Of a stretch of DNA of 33,078 nt, positions 10,124 to 17,633 are shown in pieces (position 1 is the stretch's first letter; each line of letters begins with the position of its first letter). Source of the stretch: Candidatus Lambdaproteobacteria bacterium RIFOXYD2_FULL_50_16 (lineage in GTDB: Bacteria; SAR324; XYD2-FULL-50-16); assembly GCA_001783695.1 (NCBI GenBank), contig MFNE01000043.1, positions 8,637 through 41,714 on the forward strand, written 5' to 3'. A program made the position numbers and the translations under genes. Below the pieces are notes generated by a model. It did no database searches, was not told the origin of the DNA, and saw only the letters and a list, made by a program, of their open reading frames with translations.

Positions 10124-10816
10124 TTAGGGTCGTTGCTCAATCGGACGACTCCACTCGTCGTCGATTAAAAATTGGTGTGGATAGAATTTTGCTTTGTAAC
10201 TCATAGCGTTACAGTTATCCACCCAAAAACCAAGGTGCAAATAGGGTTTGCCCAAGGCTTGGCAAAGTTCGATTTCTTTTAATACTCCAAAGGTTCCCAG
10301 GCTCCTTCGCGACTGGGCTGGGTCAAAGGCAAAATAAACTGAAGAGACTGATTCATAGAGAATATCGAGCCAACTAACCGCCACCAATTGGTCCCCTTCG
10401 TAATATTTGACCATTTGGGTATCTACCGCGGTTTTGACTAAAAATTGCTGAAATTCTTCGGCAGTCGCAGAGCTATTGTAGCGGCCTTTGGTGAAACGCT
10501 CGTAAATCTCAAACGCCTCATTATCAAAGTGAGAGGCAGAAGCGACCAACCGTAAATCCTGATTTCGCCGCCAAATCTTTTTTTGCGATTTAGAAGGAAC
10601 AAAGTTGTTGGCTAAGATACGAATGGGGATACAAGATTCGCAACCTTTGCACTGGTTTTGGTAAAAAATATGTCCGCTGCGCCTAAAGCCGCGATTGATG
10701 AGGGCCTCATAGACGTATTCATCGAGGCGATCCGCATGGGTCAGATAGCTGAGCCATTCCTTACCCTTGAGGTAAGGGCAGTTACCATTGCTGGCTTCGA
10801 ACAGCGGAATTTCCAT
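10124..10816 (-). CDS. bpt: Aspartate/glutamate leucyltransferase (Bpt)
   Basis: Bpt transfers Leu from leucyl-tRNA to N-terminal Asp or Glu, which marks proteins for ClpS-ClpAP degradation. The protein has 230 residues, typical of the family. It has the N-terminal Cys-rich region (NCPYL, then CKGCESCIPIRI), matching the ATE N-terminal domain, and a GNAT-like C-terminal domain with YYEGDQLVAVSWLDIL and the SVYFAFDP and GFWVDNC blocks. The ATG at 10816 was chosen because AAAGGA lies eight bases before it and a promoter places the transcript start near 10851; an in-frame start at 10858 would lie upstream of that. clpS-clpA is 8 kb away in the same window. The eukaryotic-type arginyltransferase shares this fold, but the length and context fit Bpt. 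Confidence 0.92.
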   Translation of the reverse strand: MEIPLFEASNGNCPYLKGKEWLSYLTHADRLDEYVYEALINRGFRRSGHIFYQNQCKGCESCIPIRILANNFVPSKSQKKIWRRNQDLRLVASASHFDNEAFEIYERFTKGRYNSSATAEEFQQFLVKTAVDTQMVKYYEGDQLVAVSWLDILYESVSSVYFAFDPAQSRRSLGTFGVLKEIELCQALGKPYLHLGFWVDNCNAMSYKAKFYPHQFLIDDEWSRPIEQRP

Positions 10817-10841
10817 ATCAAATTTCCTTTCATGAAAAAAA

Positions 10842-10868
10842 GGGGCCCTAGCTGTCATTTATAGCCCC
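10842..10868. other. Terminator-like dyad overlapping the bpt -10 region
   Basis: GGGGC (10842-10846) and GCCCC (10864-10868) pair around a 17-base loop. T-runs lie on both sides (seven on the minus-strand side, TTTTCTTT on the plus side). It looks like a two-way terminator, but the bpt -10 hexamer lies in the loop, so a transcript from that promoter would contain only one arm. It could block stray readthrough in either direction or act as an operator. Confidence 0.45.
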
Positions 10869-10886
10869 TTTTCTTTAAAGGAGCAA
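10858..10886 (-). promoter_or_regulatory. Sigma-70-type promoter candidate for bpt-aroC
   Basis: On the minus strand TTGCTC (10886-10881), a 17-base spacer and TATAAA (10863-10858). Expected start near 10851, giving a leader of about 35 bases with the ribosome binding site for the ATG at 10816. Confidence 0.5.
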
Positions 10887-10890
10887 GTAG

Positions 10891-10921
10891 TTGACTTGCC
10901 TCTTTTTAAAATGACTGATAT
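10891..10921 (+). promoter_or_regulatory. Weak promoter candidate for the AT-hook gene
   Basis: TTGACT (10891-10896) with TGATAT (10916-10921) after a 19-base spacer. It is back to back with the bpt promoter; the two -35 boxes are five bases apart, so the genes may share control. The leader would be about 105 bases. Confidence 0.3.
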
Positions 10922-11033
10922 TAATTCTTCTATCAGACCCATACTGAACTCGGATAAAAAACGGTTTTGGCCCAAATGCTTTGTGGGTTGGCGTACTAAT
11001 AAAGCTGAAAGGGCCTTTCAAAAGGAATGCCAG

Positions 11034-11684
11034 ATGTCGAAATCTATAGCCGAACAAGTCCAAGCTTTTCTTCAAAAAAGCCCTGATGCGTCAAATAAGG
11101 AGCTTTATGCTGCCTTTCCTGACGTGCGTGGCAACACCTTGCGCCATTATCGAAGCAAATTTGCCGCAGCTCCAGCGAAGAAGCGAGCCCCTAAAAAGAT
11201 TGTAGCCCCTAAAACTCCAAAAGTGGCAAAAGAGGAAGTCGCCACGAAGGTGCCCAAGGCAAAAAAGGAACCTAAGGTAAAAAAAGAACCGAAGGCTAAC
11301 AAAGCAACTAGAGTCCCAAAGGCACCAAAAGCCGCAAAGGCCCCAAAGGTGGCTAAAGTGGCTGTGGCTCCTAGTGAGGCAATCGGGGTGCCTAAGTCCA
11401 AACGCGGACGCCCTAAAAAAGTGGCTGACGACACCGAAATGCGCTTGGCCACGTTAGAGCGCAAGGTGGATCAACTCCTTAAAACCTTGGATGTTGAAGT
11501 AGGCAAACGAGGTCGCCGGGTCAACCCGATCGACAAGCGCATCAAAGAAATGGAATCTACCATTCTTAAGTTTCTAAAAGAGCGGGGCTCCTCAATGCCT
11601 GCTGATTTAGCCAAATTAGACGATTTGCAAAAGGCGCTAACCAGCAAGATTGCCGGGTTTATTTCAAACCTAAAGAATCGCTAA
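11034..11684 (+). CDS. Histone-H1-like AT-hook DNA-binding protein
   Basis: A 216-residue basic protein of three parts. Residues 1-43 are helical, with a helix-turn-helix look (SNKELYAAFPDVRGNTLRHY). Residues 44-122 are a Lys/Ala/Pro/Val tail built from repeated KxPK and KAPK units, like eukaryotic histone H1 tails. Residues 123-129 (KRGRPKK) form a canonical AT-hook, which binds the minor groove of AT-rich DNA; KRGRR at 158-162 is a weaker relative without Pro. Residues 135-213 are helical and charged, possibly a coiled-coil. This points to a nucleoid-associated protein or transcription factor, as in AT-hook regulators of myxobacteria. The ATG at 11034 has AAGGA eight bases upstream; an earlier in-frame start at 10896 lies within the promoter. 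It precedes pyrF by five bases. Confidence 0.72.
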   Translation: MSKSIAEQVQAFLQKSPDASNKELYAAFPDVRGNTLRHYRSKFAAAPAKKRAPKKIVAPKTPKVAKEEVATKVPKAKKEPKVKKEPKANKATRVPKAPKAAKAPKVAKVAVAPSEAIGVPKSKRGRPKKVADDTEMRLATLERKVDQLLKTLDVEVGKRGRRVNPIDKRIKEMESTILKFLKERGSSMPADLAKLDDLQKALTSKIAGFISNLKNR

Positions 11685-11689
11685 TCGCT

Positions 11690-12619
11690 TTGGTCCTGAT
11701 TGATCGACTTCAGGCCCAAATCTCGGCCAAAAAAAGCCCCATCTTAGTGGGGCTTGATCCCCTTTTTGACCGCCTCCCGCCTGCTTTAAAACCAGAAAAA
11801 CCAAGCCGTGAGGCCGCTGCACTGGCTCTGTACAGATTTAACGAGGCCCTTTTGGAGGCCATCGCCGATTTAGTGCCGGCGGTTAAATTGCAAATGGCCT
11901 GTTATGAGTTATACGGTCCTGCCGGGTTGGAGGCGTTTGAGCGAAGTGTGGTAAAAGCAAAAGCCTTGGGTTTATTTGTGATTGACGATTCTAAGCGGGG
12001 CGATATTGGCAGCACCGCCGCGCTTTATGCCGCAGGCCATTTAGGTGCCGCCCCTCTAGGCCGTCTATCTGGTCCCTTGGCCGCTCAAGATTTTGTCACA
12101 ATCAATCCCTACCTAGGCAGCGACGGCCTCGACCCTTTTTATAAAGAAGCCTTGGCCCAGGACAAAGGGGTGTATGTATTAGTTCGGACCTCCAATCCCT
12201 CTGCCCGCCAATATCAAGAGGCCCAGATCGAAGGGCGAGCTTTGTTCGAGCAAATCGCCCTTGATTTACAAGCTCAAGCGCAGGCCCACCAAGGGTCCTG
12301 TGGTTACGCCCCCTTTGGTGCGGTTGTCGGGGCCACTTGGCCTGCTGAGGCAGCCAAGCTCAGGGCCATGATGCCTAATGTGCCTTTTTTGGTTCCTGGA
12401 TATGGGGCGCAAGGAGGGGCGGGGATCGACGTGATGCCTTGTTTTGACGGGGCTGGGCAAGGGGCCTTGATCAATTCCTCCCGCGGGATCATTTTCGCTT
12501 TCGAAACCGAAAAAACCCATGACTTTGCTGGTGCCGCTCGTCGGGCTACCCTGGCGATGCGGCAAGATTTGATTGATGCTTTTAAACAGACCGGGAAGCT
12601 CCCTGTTGGCTGGGATTAA
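11690..12619 (+). CDS. pyrF: Orotidine 5'-phosphate decarboxylase, type 2
   Basis: PyrF decarboxylates OMP to UMP, the last step of pyrimidine synthesis. At 309 residues it belongs to the longer type 2 branch. The catalytic block is D100-S-K102-R-G-D105-IGSTA, and LVGLDPLFDRLP (19-30) starts the first strand. The C-terminal part has the phosphate-binding PGYGAQGG and NSSRGI motifs. The start is a TTG; no ATG or GTG is in frame between the upstream stop and this codon, and no good ribosome binding site precedes it, so it may be coupled to the AT-hook gene, which ends five bases before. A hairpin with T-run overlaps the stop. Confidence 0.93.
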   Translation: MVLIDRLQAQISAKKSPILVGLDPLFDRLPPALKPEKPSREAAALALYRFNEALLEAIADLVPAVKLQMACYELYGPAGLEAFERSVVKAKALGLFVIDDSKRGDIGSTAALYAAGHLGAAPLGRLSGPLAAQDFVTINPYLGSDGLDPFYKEALAQDKGVYVLVRTSNPSARQYQEAQIEGRALFEQIALDLQAQAQAHQGSCGYAPFGAVVGATWPAEAAKLRAMMPNVPFLVPGYGAQGGAGIDVMPCFDGAGQGALINSSRGIIFAFETEKTHDFAGAARRATLAMRQDLIDAFKQTGKLPVGWD

Positions 12620-15199: not shown

Positions 15200-16630
15200 C
15201 TAGTCATCCCCTTCTTTATACTCGTTGAGTTTGTTTCTCAAGGTGCGGATGCTGATACCTAAGATATCTGCGGTTTTGGTTTTGTTTTGTTCTGTATATT
15301 CAAGGGTTTGCATGATCACTTGGCGTTCGATCTCGGCCAAGGGGGTGCCCATTTTAATGGTAAACAACTCTGAAGCTGTGCTGGCCACAGGACTGCCCTG
15401 GGGAGCTGGCTGCGTCTGAATGGCCTTAGGACTCATTAAGAGGTTGGCCACTTGAATCTCTTGCCCGCCACAAAGCAGCAGCGCCCGCTCCATTACGTTT
15501 TCCAACTCGCGCACGTTGCCGCGCCAGTTATAGTGATCAAGCAGCTTGTAAACATCTTCATGCACCCTAGGTGACTCAATCTGGTTGATTTCGGCATGTT
15601 TTTCGATAAAGTAGTTTGCCAAAAGCCGGATGTCCCCTTTGCGCTCGCGTAAGGGCGGCAGGGCCAGGGGAATTACGTTTAAGCGGAAATAAAGATCTTC
15701 GCGGAAGTGACCTTGGTTAACCGATTCCATCAGATCCCGGTTCGTGGTAGCCACCACCCGCAAATCAATAGGGATCGACTCACTCCCACCCACCCGGTCC
15801 ACCACCATTTCTTGCAAAACCCTAAGCAACTTGGCCTGCAAAGAAAGCGGCATTTCGCTGATTTCATCTAGGAGGATTGTCCCCCCTTGGGCTTGCTCAA
15901 ATTTTCCCCGGTGATCAGCAGTGGCCCCGGTAAAGCTGCCTTTGCGGTGCCCGAAGAGTTCCGATTCTAACAGGTTTTCTGGTAACGCTGCGCAGTTGAC
16001 CGCCACAAAGGGTCCTTCAACCCGGTCCGATTGATTATGAATATACCGGGCCAGTAGTTCTTTACCGGTGCCCGATTCGGCCTGGATCAAAACGGTCGCC
16101 TTCGATTTGGCGATCGACTTGGCCACAGACATGAGATTTCGCATCCCCTCGTCTTGGGTGATAATGTCCTTAAAACTAGACTTGAGCCGAAGTTCGCCCT
16201 TTTTCCCTTTCTTAGCCAACTTGACCGATTCAGGGGCCGCTTGGGTCAGGGTTGGTGGGGCTTGGTAAGAGAGTGCCCGCTCAATTAAAAAGATAAAGGT
16301 GTCAAAGTCGAAGGGCTTTTGGACATAATCAAAGGCCCCGTGTTTCATCGCCGCCAAAGCAGTATCAATAGTGCCATAGGCGGTGATTAAAACCACCGGT
16401 ATTTCGGACTTGAGGGCCTTAATGTCTTTTAAGAGTTCGATCCCGCTGCGCTTGGGCATGGTCATGTCGGTAATGACCAGACTATAGTCCTTTTTTTTGA
16501 ACTTATTTAAGCCGTCGATGGCGTTGTGGCTAAGCTCTACGGGAAAACCGCATTTCTTTAGGGCCGCGCTCATGGCGATACGCATTTCCACTTCGTCGTC
16601 CACTACCAAGATGGGGTCTTTGATCTCCAT
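15200..16630 (-). CDS. NtrC-family sigma-54-dependent response regulator
   Basis: A 476-residue activator that would use ATP to open sigma-54 promoters after phosphorylation. Domains: receiver (about 1-120) with acidic D11-D12, phospho-acceptor D55 and K105; AAA+ (about 150-390) with Walker A ESGTGKE (185-191), the sigma-54 contact loop GSFTGA (231-236) and Walker B TILLDE (251-256); Fis-type helix-turn-helix (about 434-471). Two departures from consensus are visible: Ser for Ala in GAFTGA, and Ala184 for the usual Gly before ESGTGKE. No partner histidine kinase is in the window. It follows sohB by 10 bases, so they share a transcript. Candidate targets are flagellar (FlgR/FlrC-like) or nitrogen genes; domain order alone cannot decide. 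Confidence 0.9.
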   Translation of the reverse strand: MEIKDPILVVDDEVEMRIAMSAALKKCGFPVELSHNAIDGLNKFKKKDYSLVITDMTMPKRSGIELLKDIKALKSEIPVVLITAYGTIDTALAAMKHGAFDYVQKPFDFDTFIFLIERALSYQAPPTLTQAAPESVKLAKKGKKGELRLKSSFKDIITQDEGMRNLMSVAKSIAKSKATVLIQAESGTGKELLARYIHNQSDRVEGPFVAVNCAALPENLLESELFGHRKGSFTGATADHRGKFEQAQGGTILLDEISEMPLSLQAKLLRVLQEMVVDRVGGSESIPIDLRVVATTNRDLMESVNQGHFREDLYFRLNVIPLALPPLRERKGDIRLLANYFIEKHAEINQIESPRVHEDVYKLLDHYNWRGNVRELENVMERALLLCGGQEIQVANLLMSPKAIQTQPAPQGSPVASTASELFTIKMGTPLAEIERQVIMQTLEYTEQNKTKTADILGISIRTLRNKLNEYKEGDD

Positions 16631-16640
16631 ATCCTAATCC

Positions 16641-17633
16641 CTAGAGGGGGGTTGCTGCCGAGGTCCAGGCCTCAGCCAATTGAGTCTTCCATTTACCTAT
16701 TCTGCCAAAGGAGCCCATGGGCTTACGATGGCTTACCTGATATAACGCGAACTGGTCTTTGTGTTTTAGCAAAAAGTCTTCGGCCGTGCCAATTTCGTCA
16801 ATCAGCCCTAACTCCAAAGCCTTTTGACCATACCAATATTCACCGGTAGAAAGCTTTTCTATATCCAGCAGGGGCCGATTGGCTTTAATCCAGTCTTTAA
16901 AAAGTTCGTGTGCCTCGTTTAATTCTTCTTTAAACTTGAGCCGGCTTTCTTCTTCATTTTTGCCAAAAAGGGTCAAGGTACGTTTGTATTTACCCGCCGT
17001 ATGCTGTTCAAAATCAATCCCCCGCTCCTTTAAGAAACGGCTGAAGTTTGGCAAACCGGCTACCACCCCGATACTGCCCACAATGCCAAAGGGGGCGGCA
17101 AGGATATGGTCGGCCACACAGGCCATCATGTAGCCGCCTGAAGCGGCCACCTTATCTACGGACACAATCAGCTTTAGCCCCTGTGCTTTAATCCGCCCTA
17201 ATTCAGAGGCCGCCAGCCCATATCCAGGAATTTGTCCGCCAGGACTGGTTAGACGCAACAACACCTGATCCTTAGGCTGAGCCCCGGTTAAAATTGCCGT
17301 AATCTCGGCTGAAAGATTCGCCACTCCGCTAGCGCGAATATCTCCCTCAAAGTCGAGCACAAATAGCCGGGCTTGGTCTTTCTGGGCTAGTTCCGCTTTT
17401 TTATGGGCCTCTTTAATCCGTTTTACCAGCCCCTTAGGGCCGGTGGTTTGAGCTAAGGCGAGTTCATAATCCCTAAACCGGCGGTTGATCGAAAAAATTA
17501 AAATCCCTTCCTTAGAAGGCCGCCTTAGTCCGCGCAGTAAGACCAACATCCCAAATCCGATAAATAAAACGCTGGTCAAGGCCTTGGCGACAAACAGGCC
17601 AAAATCAGCGTAAAGGGAAGGATCGTTTACCAT
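16641..17633 (-). CDS. sohB: SohB-like S49 family inner-membrane peptidase
   Basis: S49 proteases use a Ser-Lys dyad to cut signal peptides and other peptides at the membrane. The protein has 330 residues. A membrane anchor lies near residues 11-34. A basic coiled region follows, and the protease domain starts with RLFVLDFEGDIRAS (89-102). The nucleophile is S165 in KVAASGGYMMA; the general base is K217 in the TAGKYKRTLTLFGK block. That block and the length are characteristic of SohB rather than SppA. It is the first gene of a two-gene unit with the NtrC-type regulator, an uncommon pairing. Confidence 0.9.
   Translation of the reverse strand: MVNDPSLYADFGLFVAKALTSVLFIGFGMLVLLRGLRRPSKEGILIFSINRRFRDYELALAQTTGPKGLVKRIKEAHKKAELAQKDQARLFVLDFEGDIRASGVANLSAEITAILTGAQPKDQVLLRLTSPGGQIPGYGLAASELGRIKAQGLKLIVSVDKVAASGGYMMACVADHILAAPFGIVGSIGVVAGLPNFSRFLKERGIDFEQHTAGKYKRTLTLFGKNEEESRLKFKEELNEAHELFKDWIKANRPLLDIEKLSTGEYWYGQKALELGLIDEIGTAEDFLLKHKDQFALYQVSHRKPMGSFGRIGKWKTQLAEAWTSAATPL

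Follow-up and report, generated by a model that had tools for sequence, protein, structure and literature searches.

What is the function of the 216-residue protein encoded between a bpt-like and a pyrF-like gene in Candidatus Lambdaproteobacteria bacterium RIFOXYD2_FULL_50_16? Within the window (the whole analysed stretch of 33,078 nucleotides from contig MFNE01000043.1, by which all positions are numbered), an earlier note described this protein from the DNA letters as a combination of a helix-turn-helix (HTH)-like N-terminus, a basic KxPK-repeat tail resembling that of histone H1, one AT-hook and a helical C-terminus, and proposed that a control region shared with bpt and a five-base spacing to pyrF might link its level to pyrimidine synthesis. 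The shared region and the spacing are as described: the 217 bp are present, and the stop at 11684 is followed, after 5 bp, by the proposed TTG start of pyrF. The ATG of the gene is preceded by AAAGGA, and a dyad, TGAAAGGGCCTTTCA, lies at 11006–11020 inside the shared region. We take the divergent neighbour to be bpt and the downstream gene to be pyrF, both by recognition of the sequence (for bpt without a profile search); the start of bpt was set to the ATG at 10816 by judgement from the starts in relatives. The features are collected in table 1.

Table 1. Features of the bpt/pyrF locus in the window (strand "." denotes no strand)
Feature	Position	Strand	Details
bpt-like leucyltransferase gene	10124..10816	-	divergent neighbour
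Control region common to bpt and the gene	10817..11033	.	217 bp
Whole gene	11034..11684	+	ATG start; 216 aa and stop; pI 10.4
N-terminal HTH-like module	11034..11165	+	residues 1–44; single copy here, 1–3 scored in relatives
Third helix of module, basic, candidate DNA-reading helix	11130..11162	+	from AlphaFold2 and charge
Predicted disordered Lys/Ala/Pro tail with KxPK repeats	11166..11387	+	residues 45–118
DNA tandem repeats in tail	11256..11349	+	18 bp x2.9 (11256–11308); 9 bp x3.9 (11315–11349)
AT-hook KRGRPKK	11400..11420	+	residues 123–129, by sequence
Predicted C-terminal long helices	11421..11678	+	residues 130–215; conserved columns in 8 orthologues
Second RGR core (GKRGRR), in a loop linking C-terminal helices	11502..11519	+	part of a block of 24 residues shared unchanged with G002
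pyrF-like orotidine 5'-phosphate decarboxylase gene	11690..12619	+	proposed TTG start at 11690

The order bpt, gene, pyrF is found in eight of the ten genomes of the host's family (the window and orthologues in seven other genomes), and the divergence from bpt is kept in all eight. In the remaining two genomes pyrF either lies at a contig edge (G009) or has no match in an assembly that is 68% complete (G007), and we therefore claim no loss of the locus in either. Outside the family, pyrF was matched in three of seven genomes (G010 weakly, G011 and G013), and neither an adjoining family gene nor bpt was recognised there; judged by gene order, the locus is old within the family. Compared with the orthologue in genome G002, synonymous sites are saturated and pN is 0.20 in the module and 0.25 in the C-terminus, both ends are 66–67% identical (pyrF 65%, bpt 70%, aroC 74%), and the 24-residue block carrying GKRGRR and the KRGRPKK hook are both unchanged. 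By the evidence of this one pair, the reading frame is a real gene under purifying selection. All eight orthologues encode basic proteins (pI 9.9–10.4), and seven orthologues are found in public metagenome-assembled genome records titled Lambdaproteobacteria (one), SAR324 (two), Deltaproteobacteria (two) or bacterium (two).

AlphaFold2 modelling of the whole protein with eight orthologues (mean pLDDT 67.9, pTM 0.25) predicts three N-terminal helices (residues 5–15, 21–27 and 33–43), with a pLDDT of 88–92 in each 10-residue block of residues 1–40, and the identical three helices are obtained when the module is folded alone (12 rows, mean pLDDT 84.5). The helix-3 region is net positive in all 61 full-length modules, with a mean charge of +2.6 compared with +0.9 for helix 1 and –0.2 for helix 2; these values use 61 of 71 module matches (10 partial ones being omitted) and include the lysines just past helix 3. 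The three-helix core with a basic third helix that characterises the HTH superfamily is hence present at the level of predicted structure and charge, in agreement with the HTH-like N-terminus first proposed. The tail that follows is predicted to be disordered (pLDDT <50 at residues 48–94 and 96–118) and carries a net charge of +18 over residues 45–118, within which there are nine PK and six KxPK units; in 10,000 shuffled versions of this stretch the means are 3.1 and 0.84, and neither observed count is ever reached. Its description as a basic, H1-like KxPK tail is thereby borne out. The tandem repeats in the underlying DNA fit recent growth of the tail. The hydrophobic 105-aa ORF that runs antisense across the tail (11147–11464, minus strand) is apparently a side effect of the composition of the repeats. 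The C-terminus is modelled, as part of the same low-pTM (0.25) prediction, as three long helices (residues 130–158, 165–187 and 189–215), in keeping with the helical end originally described, and these probably constitute a coiled-coil part through which subunits would oligomerise.

The AT-hook is a different matter. KRGRPKK does have the RGRP core with basic flanks of an AT-hook, and exactly one such motif is present as had been claimed, but it is not a defining part of the protein: the AT-hook and the RGR loop occur in only two of the eight orthologues, both of them single-module proteins, and RGR cores are confined to the window and G002, with two in each (a GRP in G008, within SGRPLQ, lacks basic context). 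The Pfam AT_hook model (PF02178) scores 11.9 bits on the protein, below its cut-off of 17.4, and 15.5 bits in the scan of its own genome; as KRGRPKK is only the second of four matches to this model at E ≤10 in that genome, none of which exceeds the cut-off, the hook is weak when taken alone.

Searches for a known family returned little. No Pfam or NCBIfam model exceeded its cut-off on the whole protein or on either end searched separately, including any that would identify an end as part of a known non-DNA-binding family; the same held for Pfam on 17 modules and seven paralogues, and the best match of the module profile among PDB sequences had an E-value of 0.23. Two candidates were rejected: a likeness to the NCBIfam IgA-binding BAC model (E 3.9e-5, 21.7 of 1700 bits, residues 58–114), which we attribute to tail composition, and one to the RNA polymerase-binding SutA (E 0.0089, residues 2–14, 15.8 of 29.3 bits), which is too short. 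Among phage families, five of eight family proteins match PHROG phrog_1324 ("transcriptional activator"; best E 3.8e-11 and 6.7e-10) and three do not; the best of these, paralogue L071 (E 3.8e-11), also matches phrog_1687 ("MarR family", E 3.9e-7), with alignments that cover its modules. The 216-residue protein itself reaches E 0.0095 against phrog_1324 (18.6 bits and E 0.002 in the genome scan) and has no match to phrog_1687, and phrog_1324 finds matches in two of 11 relatives and three of 14 control genomes. The structural neighbours of the module include many DNA-binding HTH domains (Lrp/AsnC, homeodomains, FapR and mariner-type), all of them weak: no Foldseek E-value is below 0.001 and every Z-score is below 8, the best being the RecQ C-terminal domain (3iuo; Z 6.5, 2.4 Å over 44 residues). 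An arrangement of three short helices is common, and the same lists contain unrelated proteins such as nicotinate dehydrogenase, NTPDase, ribosomal chains and alanyl-tRNA synthetase. The module family is also unnamed in the open-licence literature that we searched on SAR324/Lambdaproteobacteria and on bacterial AT-hook/H1-like, Myb-like, xenogeneic-silencer and nucleoid-associated proteins.

Although the HTH-like head holds, the earlier reading overlooked that this head is one module of a lineage-specific repeat family. In the host's family, 30 proteins carry one to three scored copies of a helix-turn-helix-like module of ~44 residues, and a profile (A1) built from 17 of 20 aligned module copies (three divergent ones being omitted) matches all ten genomes of this family and none of the 42 others of the class at E ≤0.001, these 52 genomes constituting the whole phylum sample. 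The 216-residue protein matches A1 at E 4.4e-23, its own sequence being a row of that profile, and is the single match in its genome even at E ≤10. A second profile (A5), made without the window sequence from seven of the eight third modules of paralogue groups III and IV (that of L084 being omitted), likewise finds the gene as its sole match in the genome (E 1.8e-4); it matches nine of the ten family genomes (not G004) and, weakly, three of the 42 others (E 0.0027–0.006), matches that we take as chance. There is one family protein in each of G000, G001 and G002, two in G004 and G005, three in G007, four in G003, five in G006 and G008, and six in G009, the genomes of G003, G006, G008 and G009 measuring 6.7–7.8 Mb. 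Copies at the bpt/pyrF locus have one or two modules and paralogues up to three scored ones; of 41 pairs of modules, 21 are tandem copies at a spacing of 50–54 residues. Outside the modules, the 30 proteins contain seven GRP cores compared with a mean of 0.37 and a maximum of three in 2000 shuffles, although these seven are not all independent (the window and G002 are related, as are three group II paralogues) and one lacks basic context.

These features also bear on the idea that the protein binds RNA or ribosomes, with RNA and not DNA as the target of its lysine-rich tail and small helical domain. Ribosomal proteins and RNA chaperones commonly have basic tails, and the weak fold matches include ribosomal chains and an RNA chaperone of the FinO type; the tandem repetition of an HTH-like module, the AT-hook-like cores of some paralogues and the predominance of transcription regulators among the named PHROG matches argue the other way, and we regard action on RNA as improbable.

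Still less credible, in our judgement, is an origin from a mobile element, of which the protein would be a remnant or a domesticated product that has no function of its own in the cell. A few members do have suggestive surroundings, read by eye: in G009, a two-module paralogue (L027 266–2208) has a transposase-like ORF as its neighbour and genes of phage type nearby, and in G004 a divergent single-module protein (L070 5985–6593) sits on a short contig of 8.8 kb among unfamiliar, possibly mobile genes. Two paralogues, moreover, show a weak likeness to the Pfam model HTH_Tnp_Tc3_2, below its cut-off. Against such an origin stand the single conserved locus that group I (the bpt/pyrF copies) occupies in eight of ten genomes, the purifying selection seen in the single comparison made, with G002, and the lack of any relative in viral contigs, in phage records (tblastn with the 216-residue protein and one paralogue) or in plasmid records (one paralogue as query); a single module gave one match in phage records, at E 0.5 over 30 residues. 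One narrow peptide pattern run against genome contigs matched 22 stretches, seven of which are relatives. From searches that covered sequences outside the phylum narrowly, the family so far appears specific to its lineage, and divergent modules elsewhere remain compatible with this result.

Which known systems, then, does the protein resemble? Linker histone H1 and bacterial H1-like proteins join a small helical globular domain to a Lys/Ala/Pro-rich KxPK tail, and Myb-type proteins carry a few three-helix repeats at a spacing of ~50 residues. The tail of the 216-residue protein is of the kind found in H1 and the H1-like Hc1 and HC2, whereas its head is modelled as three helices without strands and is accompanied by a C-terminal helical part; no linker histone, Hc1 or HC2 family appears at E ≤1 in the Pfam scan. 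The likeness to Myb-type repeats is one of layout alone; a Pfam scan of the modules and of eight proteins returned no Myb family. One study describes AT-hook motifs as rare in bacteria and reports that Myxococcus CarD works with its tail replaced by histone H1 or the H1 C-terminal region (PMC8156234). As described there, CarD similarly attaches a disordered, basic tail bearing AT-hooks to a folded domain; that domain binds RNA polymerase, and the tail has four RGRP hooks (PMC8156234). The 216-residue protein differs in its HTH-like module, its single hook and its helical C-terminus, and the CarD family is not found in its Pfam scan at E ≤1. A further comparison is with the DNA-bridging proteins H-NS, Lsr2, MvaT and Rok, which consist of an oligomerisation domain, a flexible linker (basic in H-NS, MvaT and Lsr2) and a DNA-binding domain; H-NS and Lsr2 contain a Q/RGR core that resembles an AT-hook, and Rok uses a winged helix (PMC6936261). 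The 216-residue protein is predicted to have the same kinds of parts in reversed order: oligomerisation is N-terminal and DNA binding C-terminal in H-NS and Lsr2. The protein also differs from H-NS and Lsr2 in having no profile match to either and in belonging to a family whose relatives repeat the module.

We hypothesize, with slightly better than even confidence, that the protein is a chromosome-associated, probably oligomeric DNA-binding protein of this lineage-specific family. The module would read the DNA major groove, and the linker and AT-hook would grip AT-rich DNA in its minor groove. Joined through their C-terminal helices, the subunits would combine several weak contacts and so could bridge or coat DNA as H-NS, Lsr2 or Rok do, with the order of parts reversed. 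The chromosome would thereby be organised, and transcription would be affected locally or globally. Scans of the ten family genomes find HU/IHF-type proteins in all ten and neither H-NS (PF00816) nor Lsr2 (PF11774) in any. We prefer this reading to that of a local regulator because of the H-NS-like parts in reversed order, the CarD tail swap, the presence of HU and the failure to find H-NS or Lsr2; HU also counts against a chromosomal role, as it can already serve as a general nucleoid protein.

The same data also fit ordinary local transcription factors. On this account, which we consider possible but on balance unlikely, the protein would regulate bpt, together with the operon that its own gene forms with pyrF, by binding to the 217 bp shared with bpt, and the paralogues would likewise regulate their own neighbours (such as a FliL-like gene or a sensor). 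The constancy of the locus, with divergent bpt and downstream pyrF in all eight cases, speaks for it, as do the paralogue matches to the phage activator family phrog_1324. The control regions do not: across the eight shared regions there is no common word above chance and no common dyad, and in that of the window no sigma-70-like site was found (0 vs 0.8 in shuffles), with one terminator-like hairpin vs 1.9 expected. Nor is the connection to pyrF uniformly close, the gap being 5, 4 and –4 bp in the window, G002 and G005, where co-transcription is plausible, but loosening in the remaining five orthologues to 54, 59, 80, 206 and 228 bp, as counted to the pyrF start listed first. With a tight gap in three of eight loci, no control-region word above chance and no pyrimidine-synthesis gene recognised by eye within three ORFs on either side of the paralogues, the suggested link to pyrimidine synthesis is not upheld. 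The long charged tail, furthermore, exceeds the need of a local factor.

The surroundings of the paralogues, which we grouped by best matches, were likewise read by eye, and the names given here are those that we take the neighbouring genes to have from their sequences, without a profile search. Group II adjoins a PAS-type sensor-like gene in five of five cases (with a sirtuin-like gene in three), group III lies between an NtrC-type regulator with a SohB-like protein and an MnmA-like gene in four of four, group IV is near an ACT-domain protein in three of four, and group V is near a FliL-like gene in four of four; group VI comprises three two-module proteins with no noted common neighbour. That neighbours are shared within groups points to cell functions, and the retention of distinct neighbours favours local control; in two of the four group V loci (L073 4458–5813 and L079 5029–6432), the gene lies 9 and 18 bp upstream of the FliL-like gene, which suggests an operon. 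Group III, in contrast, is convergent with its regulator neighbour in all four cases, an arrangement that counts against a local factor.

Returning to the chromosome-associated reading that we favour, variation among the orthologues suggests how the putative DNA contacts may have been exchanged. The stretch from the first module to the C-terminal helices spans 28–138 residues in the eight orthologues, and in four of them (G006, G003, G008 and G001) this count includes a second module, which occupies the place of the tail and hook of the 216-residue protein. In an unrooted tree of concatenated pyrF, bpt and fliR, the window groups with G002, then G005, then G001 (support 1.0, 1.0 and 0.86), and G003, G006 and G008 fall together; the second modules of the latter three cluster with a support of 94, and with that of G001 at 76, in a module tree that is weak overall (support 23–94). 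Within the limits of an unrooted tree, this pattern fits an older two-module form from which the window lineage lost the second module and gained minor-groove hooks.

A broader proposal, which we offer as speculative and rather doubtful, is that one SAR324/Lambdaproteobacteria lineage has its own family of chromatin proteins, in which tandem HTH beads, a basic linker and a coiled coil make up an H-NS turned inside out, in genomes where neither H-NS nor Lsr2 can be detected. The family would have multiplied into several vertically inherited paralogues in the 7-Mb genomes, and the second HTH bead and the AT-hook/lysine tail would serve as interchangeable second contacts. If DNA is bound and bridged, an uncultured lineage would organise its chromosome with a family to which our searches of Pfam, NCBIfam and PDB gave no name, and a locus at which an extra HTH module is swapped with an AT-hook tail would permit a direct comparison of the two kinds of contact; if the members are only local regulators, the family would represent an ordinary lineage-specific expansion.

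The C-termini of group I are not detectably related to those of other groups (profile comparison probability 5% and 0.6%). A conserved additional N-terminal domain of ~53 residues, with the motif SKTTIKRAK, occurs in five proteins of groups II and III (L067 4807–5874, L072 4444–5595, L077 4641–5825, L083 4732–5898 and L028 5901–6995) and is possibly a diverged module; as its profile comparison with the module reaches only 19%, we do not claim a fourth module. Elsewhere in the window (15200–17633, minus strand), genes for an NtrC-type response regulator and a SohB-like protein are present with no adjoining family gene, and homologues of these genes, as read by eye, adjoin a group III paralogue in G003, G006, G008 and G009.
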